Assembly: GCA_903837555.1 (NCBI GenBank)
Contig: CAILUV010000079.1
Span: 1 to 59,074 of the forward strand
DNA: 59,074 bases
Direction: 5' to 3'
From: an uncultured Alphaproteobacteria bacterium
GTDB lineage: Bacteria; Pseudomonadota; Alphaproteobacteria; Micropepsales; Micropepsaceae
The position numbers were made by a program, and so were the translations under genes. Position 1 is the first letter of the stretch; each line of letters starts with the position of its first letter. A model generated the notes under the pieces. It ran no database searches. It saw only the letters and a program-made list of their open reading frames with translations, and was not told where the DNA came from. Positions 30,726 through 58,205 of this stretch are shown here, piece after piece.

Positions 30726-31309
30726 GACGCCAGCACGCTTTCTTTTCTGAGTGCCGCCAGAACCGGCAACAGCGGCAGGCCCAGCACCGAAAAATAATCC
30801 CCGTCCACTCTATCGAAAAGCTGCGCCCCGCGCCCTTCATAATGATAGCAGCCCACCGAGGAGAGGATGGCGGGGCCTTCGGCGGCGATGTAATCGTCCA
30901 GGAAATCCGGGCTTAAATCGCGCATCACCATCCGGCAGGGGCTGGCATGCGTCCATAGCAAGGCGCCGTCCCGGGCCAGCGCCGCCGCCGACACCAGCAG
31001 GTGCGCGCGCCCCGACAAACGGGCCAGCAACGCTCTCGCCGCGTCCAGCGTGGCGCACTTGCACAGCATCTCGTCTTCAAACGCGATCACACTGTCACCG
31101 CCCAGCACCAGACTGCCGGGATGCCGCGCCGAGACGTGCAGGGCCTTCTTCTGCGCCAAGGTCGAAGCCACCGTCGGGGCATCAGCCCCGCGAAGCGCGG
31201 CCATCAGCGCGTCTTCATCCAGGTCGGCAGGGTCTTTGGTGAATGCCACGCCCGCCGCCGTCAGAAGCGTGGACCGGCTCTGGCTGCCCGAGGCGAGAAC
31301 CAGCCTCAC
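30722..31309 (-). CDS. maf: Maf-family nucleoside triphosphate pyrophosphatase
   Basis: A 195-residue enzyme that hydrolyses non-canonical or methylated NTPs. The start LVLASGSQSRSTLLTAAGV is the Maf signature (usually SxSPRR, here SQSRS, so the subfamily may be YceF-like), and the C-terminal GRGAQLFDRVDGDYFSVLGLPL is conserved. The GTG start at 31309 overlaps the ppsR stop (GTGA). The aroE gene follows with a four-base overlap. Confidence 0.93.
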   Translation of the reverse strand: MRLVLASGSQSRSTLLTAAGVAFTKDPADLDEDALMAALRGADAPTVASTLAQKKALHVSARHPGSLVLGGDSVIAFEDEMLCKCATLDAARALLARLSGRAHLLVSAAALARDGALLWTHASPCRMVMRDLSPDFLDDYIAAEGPAILSSVGCYHYEGRGAQLFDRVDGDYFSVLGLPLLPVLAALRKESVLAS

Positions 31310-32127
31310 CCCGCAGCTTCCTTGCGCTCGGTCAGCAAATTCATCACCGCCGCCGCGGTCTCTTCGATCGAACGGCGCGACACATCGATGGTCGGCCAGT
31401 CATTATTCTCGAACAACTGCTTGGTGGCGGCGATTTCGGCGCGCACCGCATCGGGTTCGATGTAATCGGTGTCGCAGGTTTCGCCCATGGTGCTCAGGCG
31501 GTTGCGCCGCACCTGCACCAGCCGGTCGGGCGACACCCACAGGCCCACGATCAGCGGCTTTTTCGCCGCCAGCAGTTGCGGCGGCGGGGGCATGCCCGGC
31601 ACAAGCGGCACATTGGCGGCTTTCACGCCGCGAATGGCGAGATACACGCAGGTCGGCGTCTTGGAGGTGCGGCTGGCACCCGTCAGGATCACTTCGGCTT
31701 CGTCGATCGAGTCCAGCGACTGGCCATCGTCATGGGCGATGGTGAAGTTCAGAACCTCGATGCGCTCCAGATAGCGCTGGTCGACCTGGTGCTGGCGGCC
31801 GACCTTGTGGGTTTCGGTCTTGCCTAGGAACTGGCGCAGCGCCAGCACCGGGCCCTCCAGCAGATCAATGGCGCGCACCTCGATGTCGCCGCAGCGGGCG
31901 ATCAGCTTGTCGCGCAGGCCCTGATTGGCCAGGGTGAAGAACACGATGCCCGGCATGATGGCGATATGGTCCAGCGCGCGGCTGAGCTGGTGTTCGCTGC
32001 GCACCAGGGCATAGGCATGGATATGGACATCGACATTTTCGAACTGGGCCAGGGCGGCATTGGCCATGGCGTGCAGTGTTTCGCCGGTGGAATCCGACAC
32101 CAGATGGACGTGAAATTTATGATCCAC
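31306..32127 (-). CDS. ppsR: DUF299 family kinase/pyrophosphorylase (PpsR), RP001 homologue
   Basis: A 273-residue bifunctional regulator of the DUF299 family, which phosphorylates or dephosphorylates PEP synthase or pyruvate phosphate dikinase. Family segments: FHVHLVSDSTGETLHAMANAALAQF at the start, the P-loop-like LTGASRTSKTPTCVYLA and RAEIAATKQLFENNDWPTIDVSRRSIEETAA. The start is GTG at 32127, and a DnaA-box-like TGATCCACA overlaps it on the plus strand. Homologues (RP001 of Rickettsia) flank the origin in alphaproteobacteria, opposite hemE, exactly as here. Confidence 0.93.
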   Translation of the reverse strand: MDHKFHVHLVSDSTGETLHAMANAALAQFENVDVHIHAYALVRSEHQLSRALDHIAIMPGIVFFTLANQGLRDKLIARCGDIEVRAIDLLEGPVLALRQFLGKTETHKVGRQHQVDQRYLERIEVLNFTIAHDDGQSLDSIDEAEVILTGASRTSKTPTCVYLAIRGVKAANVPLVPGMPPPPQLLAAKKPLIVGLWVSPDRLVQVRRNRLSTMGETCDTDYIEPDAVRAEIAATKQLFENNDWPTIDVSRRSIEETAAAVMNLLTERKEAAG

Positions 32128-32415
32128 AGAACTGTCCCGAATTCCCCGCCCACCCGGGGAGCCGGCTGGGTGTAACCACCTATTCAGCCACAGGCTCCTA
32201 GCCGGGAACGGCCAAACTGTGCAAACCCGTATGCTTTGGGGATGCTATCCTTAACCGCCAACATACCGTGACGCACCTGCACCGCCCACCCGAATATCGC
32301 CAAGTGCTTGAGTCCACGCGCTCTTGCGCTTAAGCCATGGCAGCTTCAACATTTCCACCCACAGTTCACAGCCCTAACATCATCTTCATCATCCTTAGTA
32401 CTTAGGAGTCTTATT
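32128..32415. other. oriC: Predicted chromosomal replication origin (oriC)
   Basis: This 288-base gap lies between the divergent ppsR (DUF299) and hemE genes, the position of the experimentally known Caulobacter origin and of predicted origins in many alphaproteobacteria. It contains candidate weak DnaA boxes: TGATCCACA (32120-32128, one mismatch to TTATCCACA) and TCAGCCACA (32184-32192, two mismatches). A TGGGGA at 32237-32242 reads TCCCCA on the other strand, like the Caulobacter W-box. The right third (32370-32415) is the most AT-rich part and could be the unwinding element. Genes on both sides point away from it. No perfect DnaA box is present, so the call rests mainly on context. Confidence 0.6.
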
Positions 32416-33450
32416 TTGAGTAGTGACCGGAAGGTGATGCGTGTCCTGACAGGAAGCGCCGAGAACGTGCCGCCGGTCTGGCTGATGCGTCAAGCCGGAC
32501 GGTACCTGCCGGAGTACCGCAAGCTGCGTGCCGAAGCCGGTTCCTTCTGGGACATGGCGCTGAACCCCAAATATGCCGCCGAAGTCACGTTGCAGCCGAT
32601 CCGCCGGTTCGGCTTTGACGCAGCAATCCTGTTCTCGGACATCCTGACGGTGCCTGAGGCGCTTGGACAGAAGGTGACGTTCACCACTGGCGAAGGCCCC
32701 AGCCTGACACCAGTGACCAGCGCAAAGGGTTTCAACGAAGACCGCGAAGCCTGGGCCCAGTATTTCGAGCCGGTCTATGAGGCGCTGCGCCTGACGCGCG
32801 CGGGCCTTGGCGATGAGACCACGCTGCTGGGTTTCGCCGGGGCGCCCTGGACACTGGCAACCTATCTGGCAGCGGGCGCGGGCGGCGATGAGCAGAAGGC
32901 CGCCAAGCTGTGGGCTTACCGCGATCCGGAGGGCTTTGGATATTTTCTGGATATCTTGAGTGAATGCGTCGCCTTCCATCTGATCGGCCAGATCGATGCC
33001 GGCGCCGATGCGGTGCAGATTTTCGACAGTTGGGCCAGCGGCCTGCCGCCGGCGCTGTTCAGCCAGGTGGTGATCGCGCCCACCAAGAAAATCGTCGATC
33101 AGGTGCGCGCTGCCCGGCCGGGCGCAAAAATCATCGGCTTCCCCCGCGCCTCGACGCTGGCTGGCTATGAAGCTTACGCCCAGGCGCTGGGCGTCGATGC
33201 GATTTCGCTGGATACCTCTGCGCCGATGCGCTGGGCGGCCAGGAACCTGCCGGGCGCGATCCAGGGCAATCTGGACCCGATCGTGCTGATCGCGGGCGGC
33301 GCGGCATTGGACAAGGCGGTGGACGACATTCTGGAAGCCACCCGGGGCAAGCCGCATATCTTCAATCTGGGCCACGGCATTTTGCCGGAGACGCCGATCA
33401 CGCATGTTGAACAGTTGCTGAAGCGCATCCGCCAGGGATCAACGGCGTGA
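32416..33450 (+). CDS. hemE: Uroporphyrinogen III decarboxylase
   Basis: A 344-residue cytoplasmic enzyme converting uroporphyrinogen III to coproporphyrinogen III. The signature PPVWLMRQAGRYLPEYR and the catalytic Asp in FDAAILFSDIL are present, as is IQGNLDPIVL near the C-terminus. The start is taken as TTG at 32416 because AGGAG sits seven bases ahead; the in-frame GTG (32431) and ATG (32434) lack such a site. The stop overlaps the hemH GTG start (GTGA). It is the first gene right of the predicted origin. Confidence 0.95.
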   Translation: MSSDRKVMRVLTGSAENVPPVWLMRQAGRYLPEYRKLRAEAGSFWDMALNPKYAAEVTLQPIRRFGFDAAILFSDILTVPEALGQKVTFTTGEGPSLTPVTSAKGFNEDREAWAQYFEPVYEALRLTRAGLGDETTLLGFAGAPWTLATYLAAGAGGDEQKAAKLWAYRDPEGFGYFLDILSECVAFHLIGQIDAGADAVQIFDSWASGLPPALFSQVVIAPTKKIVDQVRAARPGAKIIGFPRASTLAGYEAYAQALGVDAISLDTSAPMRWAARNLPGAIQGNLDPIVLIAGGAALDKAVDDILEATRGKPHIFNLGHGILPETPITHVEQLLKRIRQGSTA

Positions 33451-34466
33451 AGCTGGCGGTTGTCCTGTTCAACCTGGGTGGTCCGGATTCGCCCGAAGCC
33501 GTGCAGCCGTTTTTGCGCAACCTGTTTTCCGACCCCGCCATCATCGGACTGCCGACGATGTTTCGCCTGCCGCTGGCGCGTTTCATTGCGCGGCGTCGCG
33601 CGCCCATCGCGCGGGAGATTTATCACCAGATCGGCGGGCGCTCGCCCATATTTGAAGAAACCCGCGCCCAGGCCGATGCCCTGACCAAGGCGCTGTCGAC
33701 AGGCGGGGTAAACCCCAAAGTCTTCATCGCCATGCGCTACTGGCATCCGTTCAGCGATGGGGCAGCGGCGGCCGTGAAAGCCTATGACCCCGATAAAATC
33801 GTGCTTTTGCCGCTGTATCCGCAATATTCCACCACCACGACGGCTTCGTCGCTGAAGGATTGGGACCGCGCCGCGAAGAAGGCGGGGATCACCGTGCCGA
33901 CCTCGCGGGTGTGCTGCTATCCCAGCGAAGAAGGCTTTGTCGCCGCGGCCACGGCGCATGTCCGCGCTGCGCTGGAAGGCGCGCGCACGGATATTTCCTA
34001 TCGCCTGCTGCTGTCGGCGCATGGCTTGCCCAAGAAAGTAATACGCAAGGGCGACCCCTATCAGCGCCAGGTCGAGCAGACCGCCGCCGCAATCGTTGCG
34101 GCGCTGGACATGCCAGGGCTGGATTCCCAGGTTTGCTATCAAAGCCGGGTCGGTCCGCTGGAATGGATCGGCCCTTCGACCGATGACGAAATCCGCCGCG
34201 CCGGCAAGGACGGCAAAGGCGTCATCATCGCGCCGGTCGCCTTTGTCAGTGAGCATTCCGAAACACTGGTGGAACTGGACATCGAGTATCGCAAGCTGGC
34301 GGAAGAAGCCGGCGTGCCGGATTACCGCCGCGCCGCGACCGCCGGGGTACAATCCGATTTCATCGGCGGGCTGGCGGGACTTGTGCGCCGCGCCCTGGTG
34401 ACCGACATAGTGGCGCCAACGCCGGGCGGATGTGCGACCGGCCTGTGCGGCTGCAGGAAGAGCTGA
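33447..34466 (+). CDS. hemH: Ferrochelatase
   Basis: A 339-residue enzyme inserting ferrous iron into protoporphyrin IX. Landmarks: LFNLGGPDSPEAVQPFLRNLFSDPAII, LPLYPQYSTTTTAS, the catalytic LLSAHGLPKKVIRKGDPY (His), CYQSRVGPLEWIGPSTDD and VAFVSEHSETLVELDIEY (His, Glu). The C-terminus CATGLCGC holds cysteines like those that bind a [2Fe-2S] cluster in several alphaproteobacterial ferrochelatases. GTG start overlaps hemE; hemJ follows four bases after the stop. Confidence 0.96.
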   Translation: MKLAVVLFNLGGPDSPEAVQPFLRNLFSDPAIIGLPTMFRLPLARFIARRRAPIAREIYHQIGGRSPIFEETRAQADALTKALSTGGVNPKVFIAMRYWHPFSDGAAAAVKAYDPDKIVLLPLYPQYSTTTTASSLKDWDRAAKKAGITVPTSRVCCYPSEEGFVAAATAHVRAALEGARTDISYRLLLSAHGLPKKVIRKGDPYQRQVEQTAAAIVAALDMPGLDSQVCYQSRVGPLEWIGPSTDDEIRRAGKDGKGVIIAPVAFVSEHSETLVELDIEYRKLAEEAGVPDYRRAATAGVQSDFIGGLAGLVRRALVTDIVAPTPGGCATGLCGCRKS

Positions 34467-42098: not shown

Positions 42099-43973
42099 AT
42101 GAGCTACGACGTCATCGTCATTGGCGGGGGCCATGCGGGCTGCGAAGCAGCGGCCGCGTCGGCGCGCTTTGGCGCCCGCACCCTGCTCCTCACCCACAAG
42201 TTCGAGACGCTGGGCGAAATGTCCTGCAATCCGGCCATTGGCGGGGTGGGCAAGGGCCATCTGGTGCGCGAGATCGATGCGCTGGACGGGCTGATGGGCC
42301 GGGTGGCAGATGCCGCCGGCATCCAGTTTCGCCTGCTTAACCGGCGCAAGGGACCGGCGGTGCGGGGGCCGCGCGCCCAGGCCGACCGCGCGCTCTACCG
42401 CGCAGCAATGCAATCCATGCTGCGCAGCATTTCCAATCTGGAAATCCGCGAGGCGAGCGCCGAAGACCTGATTTTAAAGGATAAAAACGTTGTCGGCGTT
42501 GGCACTGGCGATGGCGAGGAGATTGCCTGCGCCCGCGTGGTGCTGACCACCGGCACATTTCTCAACGGCCTGATCCATATCGGCGAGACCAGGATTCCCG
42601 CCGGGCGGATGAAGATCGAGGACGGCGTCGAAGCCCCGTCGATTGGCCTGTCCAGGACGCTGTATGGCTTTGGCCTGGCGATGGGGCGGCTCAAGACCGG
42701 CACACCGCCGCGCCTCGATGGCCGCACCATCGATTGGGCCGCGCTGGAAATGCAGCCGGGGGATGAACCGCCCCTGCCCTTTTCCTTCCTGACCAAAAAG
42801 ATCACCACGGCCCAGATCGCCTGCGGCATAACCCGCACCACGCTTTCGACCCACCAGATCATCCGCGCCAATCTGCACCGCGCCCCGATGTACACCGGCC
42901 AGATCGCTTCGACGGGCCCGCGCTATTGCCCGTCCATCGAGGACAAGGTTAGCCGCTTCGCCGACAAGGAATCGCACCAGATTTTCCTTGAACCAGAAGG
43001 GCTTAGAACCGATCTCATTTACCCCAACGGCATTTCCACCTCCCTGCCACAGGACGTCCAGATCGCGCTTCTGGCCACCATTCCGGGGCTGGAAAAGGTC
43101 TCGGTGCAGCGGCCCGGCTATGCCATCGAATATGACTATGTCGATCCGCGGGAGCTGTCTGCCGCTTTGGAAGTGAAGCAGGTGCCGGGTCTTTATCTGG
43201 CGGGGCAGATTAACGGCACCACCGGCTATGAAGAGGCGGCCGCACAGGGGCTGATGGCGGGCTGGAATGCCGCCCGCGCCGCCAGCGGCACCCCGCCGGT
43301 CATTCTGGACCGCGCCCAGGCCTATATCGGCGTGATGATCGACGATCTGGTGACCAAGGGCGTATCCGAGCCCTATCGCATGTTCACCAGCCGGGCGGAG
43401 TACCGCCTGACCCTGCGTTCCGACAATGCCGACCAGCGCCTGACCGAACTGGGCGAAAAGGGCGGGATTGTTGGGTCCGAGCGCAGCGCGACGTTCCAGA
43501 ACAAGCTTATGCGGCTCGATGTTTCACGTGAAACACTGGGTTCCCTGTCCCTGACCCCAAATGAAGCCGCAAAGCACGGCATCGCCATCCGGCTCGACGG
43601 CGTCCGCCGCAACGCCATGGAACTTCTGAGCCTGACCGATATGGGTTCCCTGAGCCGGATTTGGCCGGAACTTAAGTTCCTGGATGCCGATGTGGCCGAG
43701 CAACTGGAAATCGACGCCCAATATGCCGGATATCTGGACCGGCAGGACGCCGACATCATCGCCTTCCGCCGCGACGAGGACCGCGCCTTGCCCGCCCACC
43801 TGGACTATGCCGCGGTGATCGGCCTTTCCAACGAAGTCCGCGCCAAGCTGGAGCGCATCCGCCCGGCCACGCTGGGCCAAGCCGCCCGTATCGAAGGCGT
43901 TACGGCGGCGGCCCTAACCCTTGTTCTGGCCCATGTGAAAGGCCTGAAGGCCAAAAATGTCGTTCGGGGCTAA
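42099..43973 (+). CDS. mnmG: tRNA uridine-5-carboxymethylaminomethyl(34) synthesis enzyme MnmG
   Basis: A 624-residue FAD-dependent partner of MnmE. The FAD-binding motif is [20 protein letters not shown], followed by [24 protein letters not shown], the GTFLNG segment and the GidA signatures [11 protein letters not shown] and [16 protein letters not shown]. The C-terminal tRNA-binding helices are intact. A perfect parS site (43520-43535) is embedded and encodes VSRET. ATG 42099 is used; the 16 in-frame codons upstream are not family-like. Its end overlaps rsmG by 17 bases. Confidence 0.97.
43520..43535. other. parS: parS centromere site 1 (inside mnmG)
   Basis: TGTTTCACGTGAAACA, a perfect match to the 16-base palindromic parS consensus bound by ParB. 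It lies within mnmG and encodes part of DVSRETL. parA and parB begin about 1.05 and 1.85 kb downstream. Confidence 0.95.
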
Positions 43974-44631
43974 TGAGTTCGCCGCCAAAGCGGGTGTTTC
44001 ACGTGAAACACTGGCCCGGCTAAAGGCCTATGCCGACCTGCTGACCGACTGGAATACCCGGCACAATCTGGTGGCCAAGAGCACCCTGCCGGACGTCTGG
44101 CACCGGCATATCTGGGACAGCGCCCAGCTTGCGCCCCTGCTCCCGCCGGACGCCAGGACCTTGGCCGACCTGGGCTCCGGCGCCGGGTTTCCAGGGCTGG
44201 TGCTGGCGGCGATGCGCCCGGACATCGCCGTGACCCTACATGAAGCGACCACCAAGAAATGCGCCTTCCTGCAGACCGCAGCAGAGCTGATGGGCCTGAC
44301 CATCTCCATTGAAAACGCTCGAATGGAAGAATTGCCGCGCAAGGTCCATGACGTGGTCACCGCACGCGCCTGCGCGCCCCTGCCCCTGCTGTTCAAATAT
44401 GCCCACAGCTTCGTAGGACCGAACAGTGTTTGCCTTTTCCTAAAAGGACAAAATGTTGGGCCTGAATTGACCGAAGCCACCAAATATTGGAAAATGGAGG
44501 TCTCACAGGTTCCGAGCCAGACCGACCCTTCGGCTGCTATAGTGACGGTGAGAAAGCTGGGCCTTCGTCATGTCGCTTCCCAAGAAACCGCGCGTGCTGG
44601 TCGTCGCCAACCAAAAGGGCGGCGTCGGTAA
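43957..44631 (+). CDS. rsmG: 16S rRNA (guanine-527-N7)-methyltransferase RsmG
   Basis: A 224-residue SAM-dependent methyltransferase for G527 of 16S rRNA. Landmarks: [30 protein letters not shown], the SAM loop [21 protein letters not shown] and [18 protein letters not shown] perfect parS site near the 5' end encodes VSRETL. The C-terminal 20 residues (Arg/Gln/Lys-rich) extend 62 bases into parA and are unlike the family end, so they are probably a read-on tail tolerated by the overlap. Confidence 0.94.
43995..44010. other. parS: parS centromere site 2 (inside rsmG)
   Basis: A second perfect TGTTTCACGTGAAACA, 475 bases from the first. It is read in the same frame as site 1 and again encodes VSRETL, here at residues 14-19 of RsmG. 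Confidence 0.95.
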
Positions 44632-45376
44632 AACCACGACGGCCATCAACCTGGGCACCGCCTTGGCGGCCGTGGGCGAACCCACCCTCGTCATCGACAT
44701 CGATCCGCAGGGCAACGCCTCGACCGGGCTGGGCATTCACCGCCAGGACCGCAACCTCACCACCTATGAAGTGCTGACGGGCGCCGCCAGGCTGAGCGAA
44801 GCCATCGTCGCCACCCGCATCCCGGGCCTGTCCCTTGTCCCGGCCACGGTCGACCTGTCGGGCGCGGAGCTTGAGCTGGCCGACATGCCCCGGCGCAATT
44901 TCATCTTGAAAGACGCGCTGGACGAATATTCCGCACACGGACAAAACGAATTTTCCTACATCCTGATCGACTGCCCTCCGTCCCTCACCTTGCTGACGCT
45001 GAACGCGATGGCGGCGGCGGATGCGGTGATGGTACCGCTGCAATGCGAGTTCTTCGCGCTGGAAGGCCTGAGCCAGTTGATGAAGACCATCGAGCTGGTG
45101 CGCGACAAGCTGAACCCGACGCTTGAGATTCAGGGCATCGTCCTGACCATGTTCGACAAGCGCAACAAGCTGAGCGATCAGGTCGCCGCCGACGTGCGCG
45201 AGACGCTGGGCGAGAAAGTCTATTCCACCGTCATTCCGCGCAATGTGCGCATTTCCGAAGCGCCCAGCCATGGCGTGCCGGCGCTGGTCTATGACCTGCG
45301 CTGTCCCGGCAGCCAAGCTTATATCAAGCTGGCGGGCGAGTTGATCCAGCGTGAACGCGTCAGGGCCGCAGCATGA
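44570..45376 (+). CDS. parA: Chromosome partitioning ATPase ParA
   Basis: A 268-residue deviant Walker ATPase that moves ParB-parS complexes after replication. The P-loop is [23 protein letters not shown], followed by LVIDIDPQGNASTGLG and YILIDCPPSLTLLTLNAM. No N-terminal helix-turn-helix is present, so it is the chromosomal Soj/ParA type. It starts inside the end of rsmG and overlaps parB by four bases (ATGA). Confidence 0.97.
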   Translation: MSLPKKPRVLVVANQKGGVGKTTTAINLGTALAAVGEPTLVIDIDPQGNASTGLGIHRQDRNLTTYEVLTGAARLSEAIVATRIPGLSLVPATVDLSGAELELADMPRRNFILKDALDEYSAHGQNEFSYILIDCPPSLTLLTLNAMAAADAVMVPLQCEFFALEGLSQLMKTIELVRDKLNPTLEIQGIVLTMFDKRNKLSDQVAADVRETLGEKVYSTVIPRNVRISEAPSHGVPALVYDLRCPGSQAYIKLAGELIQRERVRAAA

Positions 45377-46233
45377 ATCCTCCCCAGCACGATCGTCCCC
45401 GTGGTCTGGGCCGCGGTCTCTCCGCATTGATCGGTGACGAAGTCGCCGCGGTGAAGGGCGAGCCCATTGCCAAGAAAGACATCCGCACGTTGCCGGTCGC
45501 TTTCCTGCAGCCGGGTCGCTATCAGCCGCGCAAGACGTTCGACGAACAGCCGCTGGCGGACCTAGCGGCCTCGGTAAAGGAGAAGGGCGTGCTGTCGCCG
45601 ATCCTGGTCCGCCCGGTGGGGCCGGACCGTTACGAGATCGTGGCGGGCGAACGGCGCTGGCGCGCGGCGCAACTGGCCAAGCTGCATGACGTGCCGGTGG
45701 TGGTGCGCGAGCTGGCCGACGATCAGGCGCTGGAAATCGGCATCATCGAAAATGTCCAGCGCGCCGATCTCAACGCGATGGAAGAGGGCGCCGCCTATCA
45801 GGAGCTGGTCAGCAAGTTCGGCCGCACCCAGGAACAGGTGGCGCAGCAGGTCGGCAAAAGCCGCAGCCACATCGCCAACACCATCCGGCTTTTGCAGTTG
45901 CCCGAACAGGTCAAGGCCTGGGTGCGCGACGGCAAGCTGACGGCCGGCCATGCCCGCACCCTGTTGGGCACGCCCGACCCGGTCGCGGCGGCGCGCGATT
46001 TGATCGAAGGGGCGCTGAGCGTGCGCCAGGCCGAGCAACGCGCACCGGCCAAGAAGAAACCGGGCGCAAAGCCCTACAAAGACCCCAACATCGCTGACAT
46101 GGAAGCCAGCATTTCCAACCGCCTGGGGCTGAAAATCCAGATCCTCCACAAAGGGGAAAAGGGCGGGGAAGTCCGTATCAGCTACAGAACGCTGGAACAG
46201 CTCGACGATCTGGAACGTCGCCTAAAGAACTAG
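45373..46233 (+). CDS. parB: Chromosome partitioning CTPase ParB
   Basis: A 286-residue DNA clamp that loads at parS. The N-terminal ParA-stimulating segment [13 protein letters not shown], the CTP-binding ParB/Srx motif ([41 protein letters not shown]), the helix-turn-helix ([26 protein letters not shown]) and the C-terminal dimer domain ([34 protein letters not shown]) are all present. Its targets, two parS sites, lie just upstream. The stop overlaps the stop of convergent hisA. Confidence 0.97.
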
Positions 46234-57978: not shown

Positions 57979-58014
57979 CACCGTGAAAGTCCTTTAGAAA
58001 CAAAGGCATCGCGT

Positions 58015-58033
58015 TATGAGTAACTTACTCATA
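58015..58033. promoter_or_regulatory. Perfect 19-base palindrome, candidate operator
   Basis: TATGAGTAACTTACTCATA has nine-base arms around a central C. It lies immediately upstream of the leftward ribbon-helix-helix gene, where an autoregulatory operator would be expected. Ribbon-helix-helix dimers bind such short inverted repeats. The link to this protein is inferred from position. Confidence 0.55.
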
Positions 58034-58051
58034 GGGCGGAACCTTAGATAA

Positions 58052-58078
58052 GGAACCCATTTTGGGCGGATTAGTTCC
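58052..58078. promoter_or_regulatory. GGAAC/GTTCC element, EcfG-like promoter
   Basis: GGAAC (58052-58056), 16 bases and then AGTT matches the EcfG promoter pattern GGAAC-N16-CGTT with one mismatch, pointing to the kinase gene. Because the end reads GTTCC, the same element on the minus strand reads GGAAC-N16-GGTT and points to the ribbon-helix-helix gene. A further GGAAC lies at 58038-58042. Confidence 0.4.
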
Positions 58079-58093
58079 TTGCGGCAAGATCGT

Positions 58094-58107
58094 CTTTGGT
58101 ACCAAAG
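58094..58107. promoter_or_regulatory. Perfect 14-base palindrome
   Basis: CTTTGGTACCAAAG, a perfect palindrome in the gap upstream of the kinase gene. It is a plausible binding site for a dimeric regulator; which one is unknown. Confidence 0.4.
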
Positions 58108-58139
58108 CAGCCAGTTGCTAACTTAAGTCATTGAAATAT

Positions 58140-58151
58140 AACAATATTGTT
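58140..58151. promoter_or_regulatory. Perfect 12-base AT-rich palindrome
   Basis: AACAATATTGTT lies about 55 bases before the kinase start, inside the most AT-rich part of the gap. It could be an operator or part of the core promoter region. Confidence 0.35.
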
Positions 58152-58205
58152 GTTGCCACCCGGTCCGGATGGGTGCATGCTGGTCGGTGAAAGGAGGGTC
58201 TCCTC

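Follow-up and report, generated by a model that had tools for sequence, protein, structure and literature searches.

A predicted chromosomal replication origin between ppsR and hemE in an uncultured alphaproteobacterium, retained in relatives that have lost hemE beside it

The 288-bp gap between the divergent genes ppsR and hemE (nucleotides 32128–32415) is, with high confidence as judged by sequence analysis, predicted to be the chromosomal replication origin (oriC) of the uncultured alphaproteobacterium studied here. It would be an ordinary hemE-type origin without CtrA sites, and a relative of the known Caulobacter origin. New here are the exact location of its likely core, at the hemE end of the gap, and repeated losses of the hemE gene next to a predicted origin that is kept. 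A preliminary description of this DNA had already proposed the gap as the chromosomal origin. This proposal is supported by a conserved block, by low duplex stability, by an enrichment of DnaA-core motifs and by parS sites, and further by a position opposite dif and by the polarity of an octamer in relatives (in G047, and weakly in G028).

The window, by which we mean the whole stretch of DNA analyzed, has 59,074 bases and is a complete contig (G000:C79) of a 2.46-Mb genome that consists of 101 contigs. Coordinates of all features are given in Table 1. The gap has a GC content of 55%, vs. 60–68% in the adjacent 1-kb windows. Downstream of hemE, the gene order is hemH, hemJ, rho, mnmE, mnmG, rsmG, parA, parB. 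Rfam and tRNA scans of the whole window gave no matches. Gene ppsR was detected in all 37 same-genus genomes searched (G000–G036), and the order hemE–gap–ppsR is retained in 30 of them. For the comparisons presented below, the gap of the window was aligned with those of 29 of the 36 relatives. The seven genomes absent from this 30-gap alignment (G005, G007, G010, G019, G020, G026, and G033) are those whose ppsR loci were not returned; by coordinates, hemE adjoins ppsR in all of them.

Table 1. Features of the predicted origin region and of its surroundings; positions refer to the window.
Feature	Position	Strand	Remarks
ppsR (DUF299/COG1806 kinase-phosphorylase)	31306..32127	-	GTG start; NCBIfam NF003742 314 bits, cut-off 225; left boundary
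TGATCCACA	32120..32128	+	Identical to Caulobacter G-box (moderate-affinity DnaA site); overlaps ppsR GTG start
TCAGCCACA	32184..32192	+	Two mismatches to TTATCCACA; chance level
TCCCCA	32237..32242	-	Identical to Caulobacter W-box (very weak DnaA site)
Promoter-like pair CTTGAGTCC ... GCTTAAGC	32307..32335	+	Contains GANTC 32310–32314
Degenerate DnaA-box pair CCCACAGTTCACAG	32358..32371	+	Conserved columns 32359–32371; DnaA binding inferred
Putative DNA unwinding element	32374..32423	.	Lowest-stability 50 bp; extends into hemE start
Period-3 C tract CATCATCTTCATCATCCT	32378..32395	+	DnaA-trio-like
AGGAGTC, hemE ribosome-binding site fused with GANTC (CcrM)	32404..32410	+	GANTC 32406–32410; conserved
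hemE	32416..33450	+	TTG start; TIGR01464 357 bits, cut-off 303; right boundary
hemH	33447..34466	+	TIGR00109; second operon gene; flanks the gap in relatives lacking hemE there
parS, perfect TGTTTCACGTGAAACA	43520..43535	.	Inside mnmG
parS, perfect TGTTTCACGTGAAACA	43995..44010	.	Inside start of rsmG
parA	44570..45376	+	ParA-type ATPase by NCBIfam, no match above cut-off; precedes parB
parB	45373..46233	+	TIGR00180 193 bits, cut-off 58

The experimentally mapped Caulobacter origin is described with the same hemE–gap–ppsR gene order (PMC1914354), and G-box and W-box sequences of Caulobacter are given in PMC4285127 and PMC4468827. As far as these accounts go, the gap resembles Caulobacter crescentus Cori in its boundary genes (hemE and a COG1806/DUF299 gene), in the presence of the weak DnaA sites TGATCCACA and TCCCCA and of GANTC in the origin, and in the presence of CcrM in the genome. 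It differs from Cori in its length (288 bp vs. more than 400 bp) and in the number of weak sites, with one G-box and one W-box here vs. two and five, respectively. A further difference concerns CtrA: with up to one mismatch, the CtrA site TTAA-N7-TTAA does not occur in the gap of the window, and occurs in one of the 30 aligned gaps.

Every motif named in the preliminary description was recovered by a sequence scan. The window does not contain a perfect DnaA box. Sites with up to one mismatch to TTATCCACA number three in the 59 kb, which corresponds to about 0.015 expected per 300 bp; the shuffled gap yields 0.08. The one-mismatch box attributed to the gap does exist, but all of it except the last base lies inside ppsR, and the reliance placed on it has to be reduced: the site is real and poorly conserved. 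The two-mismatch box is also present, but two sites with up to two mismatches in the gap vs. 0.7 expected from shuffles is a count no better than chance. We regard it as a serious possibility, which we do not favor, that the box overlapping the ppsR start is a by-product of the GTG codon and not a functional DnaA site. Its best-conserved columns, CACA at 32125–32128 (93–97% in 30 genomes), are that start codon plus the preceding base; at this position the complete 9-mer TGATCCACA is found in six of the 30 aligned genomes, GATCCACA in ten and the TCCACA ending in 14. Against this reading, the 9-mer is the same as the Caulobacter G-box reported in PMC4285127, and GATCCACA occurs 12 times over the 30 homologous gaps, vs. 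0.4 expected. In the same gaps TCCACA is found 43 times (6.0 expected) and TCCCCA 26 times (8.2 expected), the genomes being related, so that these counts overstate independence. DnaA sites beyond chance are weak in the window itself, with one G-box and one W-box, and clearly enriched over the 30 gaps. In the own genome as a whole, 22 copies of the G-box 9-mer are present.

Stronger evidence than that provided by the ppsR-start box comes from the opposite end of the gap, where nucleotides 32358–32415 are the likely origin core. Mean pairwise identity among 11 genomes is 65% in the block 32355–32415 and 37% in the remaining gap; ten other 60-bp upstream stretches, taken from five genes as a control, show 16–44% identity. 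A pattern derived from the block has 44 matches in 2.13 Mb of partly overlapping sequence: 37 are identical to an aligned gap, and the other seven lie in further hemE/ppsR loci. As the pattern was built from the same gaps, of which it fits 21 out of 30, it shows specificity and is not independent support. The AT-richer right edge that had been pointed out earlier coincides with the least stable DNA of the window. The segment 32374–32423, with a nearest-neighbor energy of −57.2 kcal/mol, ranks first among all 50-bp windows of the 59 kb, and 32344–32423 is the least stable 80-bp stretch. Next in low stability comes another AT-rich gap, of 224 bp (57982–58205; 47% GC).

Several elements can be recognized at this end of the gap. 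The promoter-like pair, whose CTTG columns are conserved in 97–100% of the 30 aligned gaps, is probably the promoter of hemE-hemH-hemJ, as its sequence suggests. Downstream of it, the degenerate box pair reads mostly TCCACAAnTCACAG in the relatives and CCCACAGTTCACAG in the window, which has one of the weaker pairs of the 30 genomes (CCCACAGTTCACA). The period-3 tract comes next. Its C columns 32378, 32381, 32384, and 32387 are conserved in 93–100% of the 30 rows, and in the window it comprises six consecutive CNN triplets and six consecutive NTN triplets.

This arrangement was compared with the basal unwinding system, which is described in PMC8287927 as consisting of DnaA boxes plus DnaA-trios; the rule given there asks for three or more NAN triplets no farther than 16 bp from a box. 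As in that description, a box pair, a short GC-rich spacer, a triplet tract and low-stability DNA follow each other in the same order. Unlike in that description, the DnaA boxes are degenerate, and it is a top-strand C (G on the opposite strand) that is conserved and not the middle A of 3′-GAT-5′. Three successive top-strand NTN triplets are found in 24 of the 30 gaps, but the result is better than that of shuffles at the 0.05 level in eight of 30; the window has six triplets, yet no good DnaA box beside them. A run of at least four CNN triplets occurs in 27 of the 30 gaps, a count obtained without shuffle control. At the class level, all eight gaps examined from distant alphaproteobacteria (L073, from G045, and G054 were left out of the comparison) contain at least one DnaA box within one mismatch, and in most of them a C-triplet tract is visible by eye. 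Applied to these eight segments, the NTN rule returned two, one of which (L069) owes its match to a run outside the tract; the L068 segment missed its tract. A clear C tract beside hemE was not found in the Sinorhizobium meliloti gap. The S. meliloti record CP090106.1 (3.72 Mb) is titled plasmid pSymB, but contains the genes of the chromosomal origin cluster (rho, hemJ, hemE, and ppsR); it looks like a mislabeled chromosome. Among the titles listed in a literature search, no paper on DnaA-trios beside hemE in alphaproteobacteria or in the Caulobacter Cori was found. On the basis of its sequence, we term the tract trio-like, short of a proven DnaA-trio.

In seven of the 37 same-genus genomes (G009, G011, G014, G022, G025, G028, and G029), hemH and not hemE flanks the gap. 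These seven genomes carry a divergent hemE copy, about 48% identical, at another location, and both hemE types together were found in no same-genus genome searched for hemE. The displaced HemE proteins constitute one type, as their mutual identity is 63–93%. In a tree of ppsR, seven of whose 30 inner forks are unresolved, the genomes concerned occupy five branches. The gap survives in all seven, with a length of 265–307 bp as deduced from protein coordinates, and both the box pair and the C tract are recognizable in every one; the block pattern was found at none of the seven displaced hemE loci. In five of the seven, mnmG-parA-parB is present on the same retrieved stretch; of the other two, the G009 contig ends in mnmG and only 6 kb were available for G011. 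As the gap and most of the block stay when hemE is gone, the block is not bound to hemE itself. The origins predicted for Rickettsia and Wolbachia in PMC1914354 are similar in that they lie beside hemE with changeable flanking genes. According to that source the predicted Wolbachia origin stays with hemE, whereas in the seven genomes reported here the gap stays with ppsR.

These genomes also bear on the explanation that the block is nothing but the promoter, leader and ribosome-binding site of hemE-hemH-hemJ, with the origin located elsewhere, which we consider very improbable. The motif CTTGAGTC ... GCTTAAG is promoter-like, the block lies between the promoter-like pair and the start codon, the sequence AGGAG is well suited as a ribosome-binding site, and the operon goes on with hemH after hemE has been lost, so that operon control could preserve the block. 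Nevertheless, decay of the promoter-like pair in G009 and G025 has left the box pair and the C tract in place, and in G028, G029, and G022 AGGAG has changed to AAGAT within a block that is otherwise retained. The far lower conservation of the ten control stretches and the absence of an Rfam match speak against it as well, and a position opposite dif would be unexpected for a heme operon.

Reading the gap as the origin also agrees with its position on the chromosome. Both parS sites are about 11 kb away and are located within coding sequence. The position along the chromosome arms was examined in relatives only, the own genome being divided among 101 contigs. A first dif search was performed with a consensus that we presume to be the common one. 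It matched in four of eight genomes, and the G029 match is probably due to chance, as a reversed control matched too. A dif-like site was assigned with this consensus in G047, G044, and G049, and with a looser one in G028, G029, and the own genome; across G000, G028, and G029 the looser pattern matched 22 times, and from these matches we chose the sole one-mismatch match of each genome. The three sites chosen are the same 19-mer except for one base. This dif-like site of the genus (G000:C74:118800-118818; L175, L176) has a left arm that deviates from the common consensus (TCGTATAAGTAATATTATGRGAAATTA). The distance from the gap to dif is 0.531 of the circle in G028, 0.525 in G047, 0.447 in G044, and 0.479 in G049. 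The gap is thus opposite the dif-like site (45–53% of the circle) in all four relatives that have both on one long contig.

The octamer GGGNAGGG, which we take to be the FtsK motif, changes polarity across the gap in G047 (37:8 vs. 11:36, p = 1e-8; neighboring stretches 1:5 and 4:1). The change is weaker in G028 (39:25 vs. 19:33, p = 0.015; 41:25 vs. 17:33, p = 0.005, when the arm ends at dif), and the polarity is not significant in the G031 contig (20:15 vs. 13:17, p = 0.32). The reversed motif, used as a control, gave no significant values (p = 0.08 and 0.11 in G047; 0.56 and 0.84 in G028). An unsupervised octamer scan has a clear peak at 2.15 Mb in G047 (1.66 vs. a median of 1.08) and no clear peak in G028, where the best value is at 3.00–3.15 Mb (1.13 vs. 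a median of 1.06).

The preliminary description had proposed the GC-skew minimum as a check of the origin, but in the relatives the skew is weak, inverted or displaced, and as a refutation test it is misleading here. Skew was sampled in 40 stretches of G028 (796,101 bases), 20 stretches of G047 (400,000 bases) and one contig of G031 (399,501 bases). In these samples, the cumulative skew reaches a local maximum 20–80 kb from the gap in G031 (near 282 kb; gap at 301.5 kb) and in G028 (at 3.58–3.60 Mb; gap at 3.516 Mb), and in G047 the sign changes 30–100 kb from the gap. We rejected GC skew as an origin locator for these three genomes; PMC1914354 reports that in several alphaproteobacteria skew does not suffice on its own. 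On either side of the predicted origin, G031:C5 and G028:C1 have a skew of inverted sign (left +, right −), contrary to G047 and to what is usually seen.

There is also little reason to believe that the origin is in this neighborhood but outside the gap, say closer to parAB-parS or to dnaA. In G028, the points at which the skew turns and the best origin by octamers, the latter at 3.56–3.75 Mb with 79 of 116 octamers vs. 72 of 116 for the gap, are 65–235 kb away from the gap, and in G031 the skew turns about 20 kb off, near parB. On the other hand, the octamer polarity of G047 reverses between a stretch ending at 2.200 Mb and one starting at 2.215 Mb, and the gap lies at 2.2085 Mb. The window includes parAB-parS, yet its least stable stretch is in the gap, and the dnaA gene of the own genome is on a different contig, C34.

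The predicted origin is rich in GANTC, with 86 sites in the 30 gaps vs. 31 in shuffles, and CcrM is encoded in the own genome (phmmer match to 6pbd, 3e-171; NCBIfam CcrM model 643 bits, below the cut-off of 830). The ccrM gene (L173 1489-2586) adjoins, on the opposite strand, a mutY-like gene, a translation judged by eye. The GANTC within the promoter-like pair is present in 22 of the 30 aligned genomes, and the one fused to the hemE ribosome-binding site in 27; the latter is lost in G009 and G025 and shifted by a few bases in G023. In four genomes on three branches, only the free middle base of the fused site is altered (to C in G016; to T in G028, G029, and G022). In the last three of these, hemE is gone and AGGAG is lost, and GANTC is retained. 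GANTC is thus kept beside the C tract despite the loss of the ribosome-binding role (AGGAGTC to AAGATTC), and hypothetically the methylation state of the melting DNA could help to time initiation. The Caulobacter origin also carries GANTC, and CcrM is reported in PMC3973325 to be dispensable for initiation control, a published result contrary to the simple form of this hypothesis. We view as rather unlikely, though conceivable, an unwinding element built around CcrM sites and a trio variant with a conserved first G in place of the middle A.

We propose that DnaA would bind weak sites across the gap, namely the G-box at the ppsR start, the W-box and the box pair at the hemE end. From the box pair, it may extend along the period-3 tract onto a single strand, and this extension would melt the adjacent low-stability DNA, where the helicase would be loaded. 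The hemE operon promoter would lie just upstream, with a leader crossing the same block, as in Caulobacter. ParAB would then segregate the replicated origin by means of the two parS sites. The melting region of the E. coli origin has GATC sites. If the methylation hypothesis is true, GANTC in the melting DNA would be their counterpart.

Gene hemE serves as a landmark for alphaproteobacterial origins, and in this genus both hemE and GC skew are unsafe markers. The genomes that have lost hemE beside the gap offer a natural experiment, in which origin sequence can be separated from hemE control sequence without bench work. With a predicted location of oriC for an uncultured alphaproteobacterial genus, a short conserved block becomes available on which DnaA loading and an involvement of CcrM methylation can be tested.
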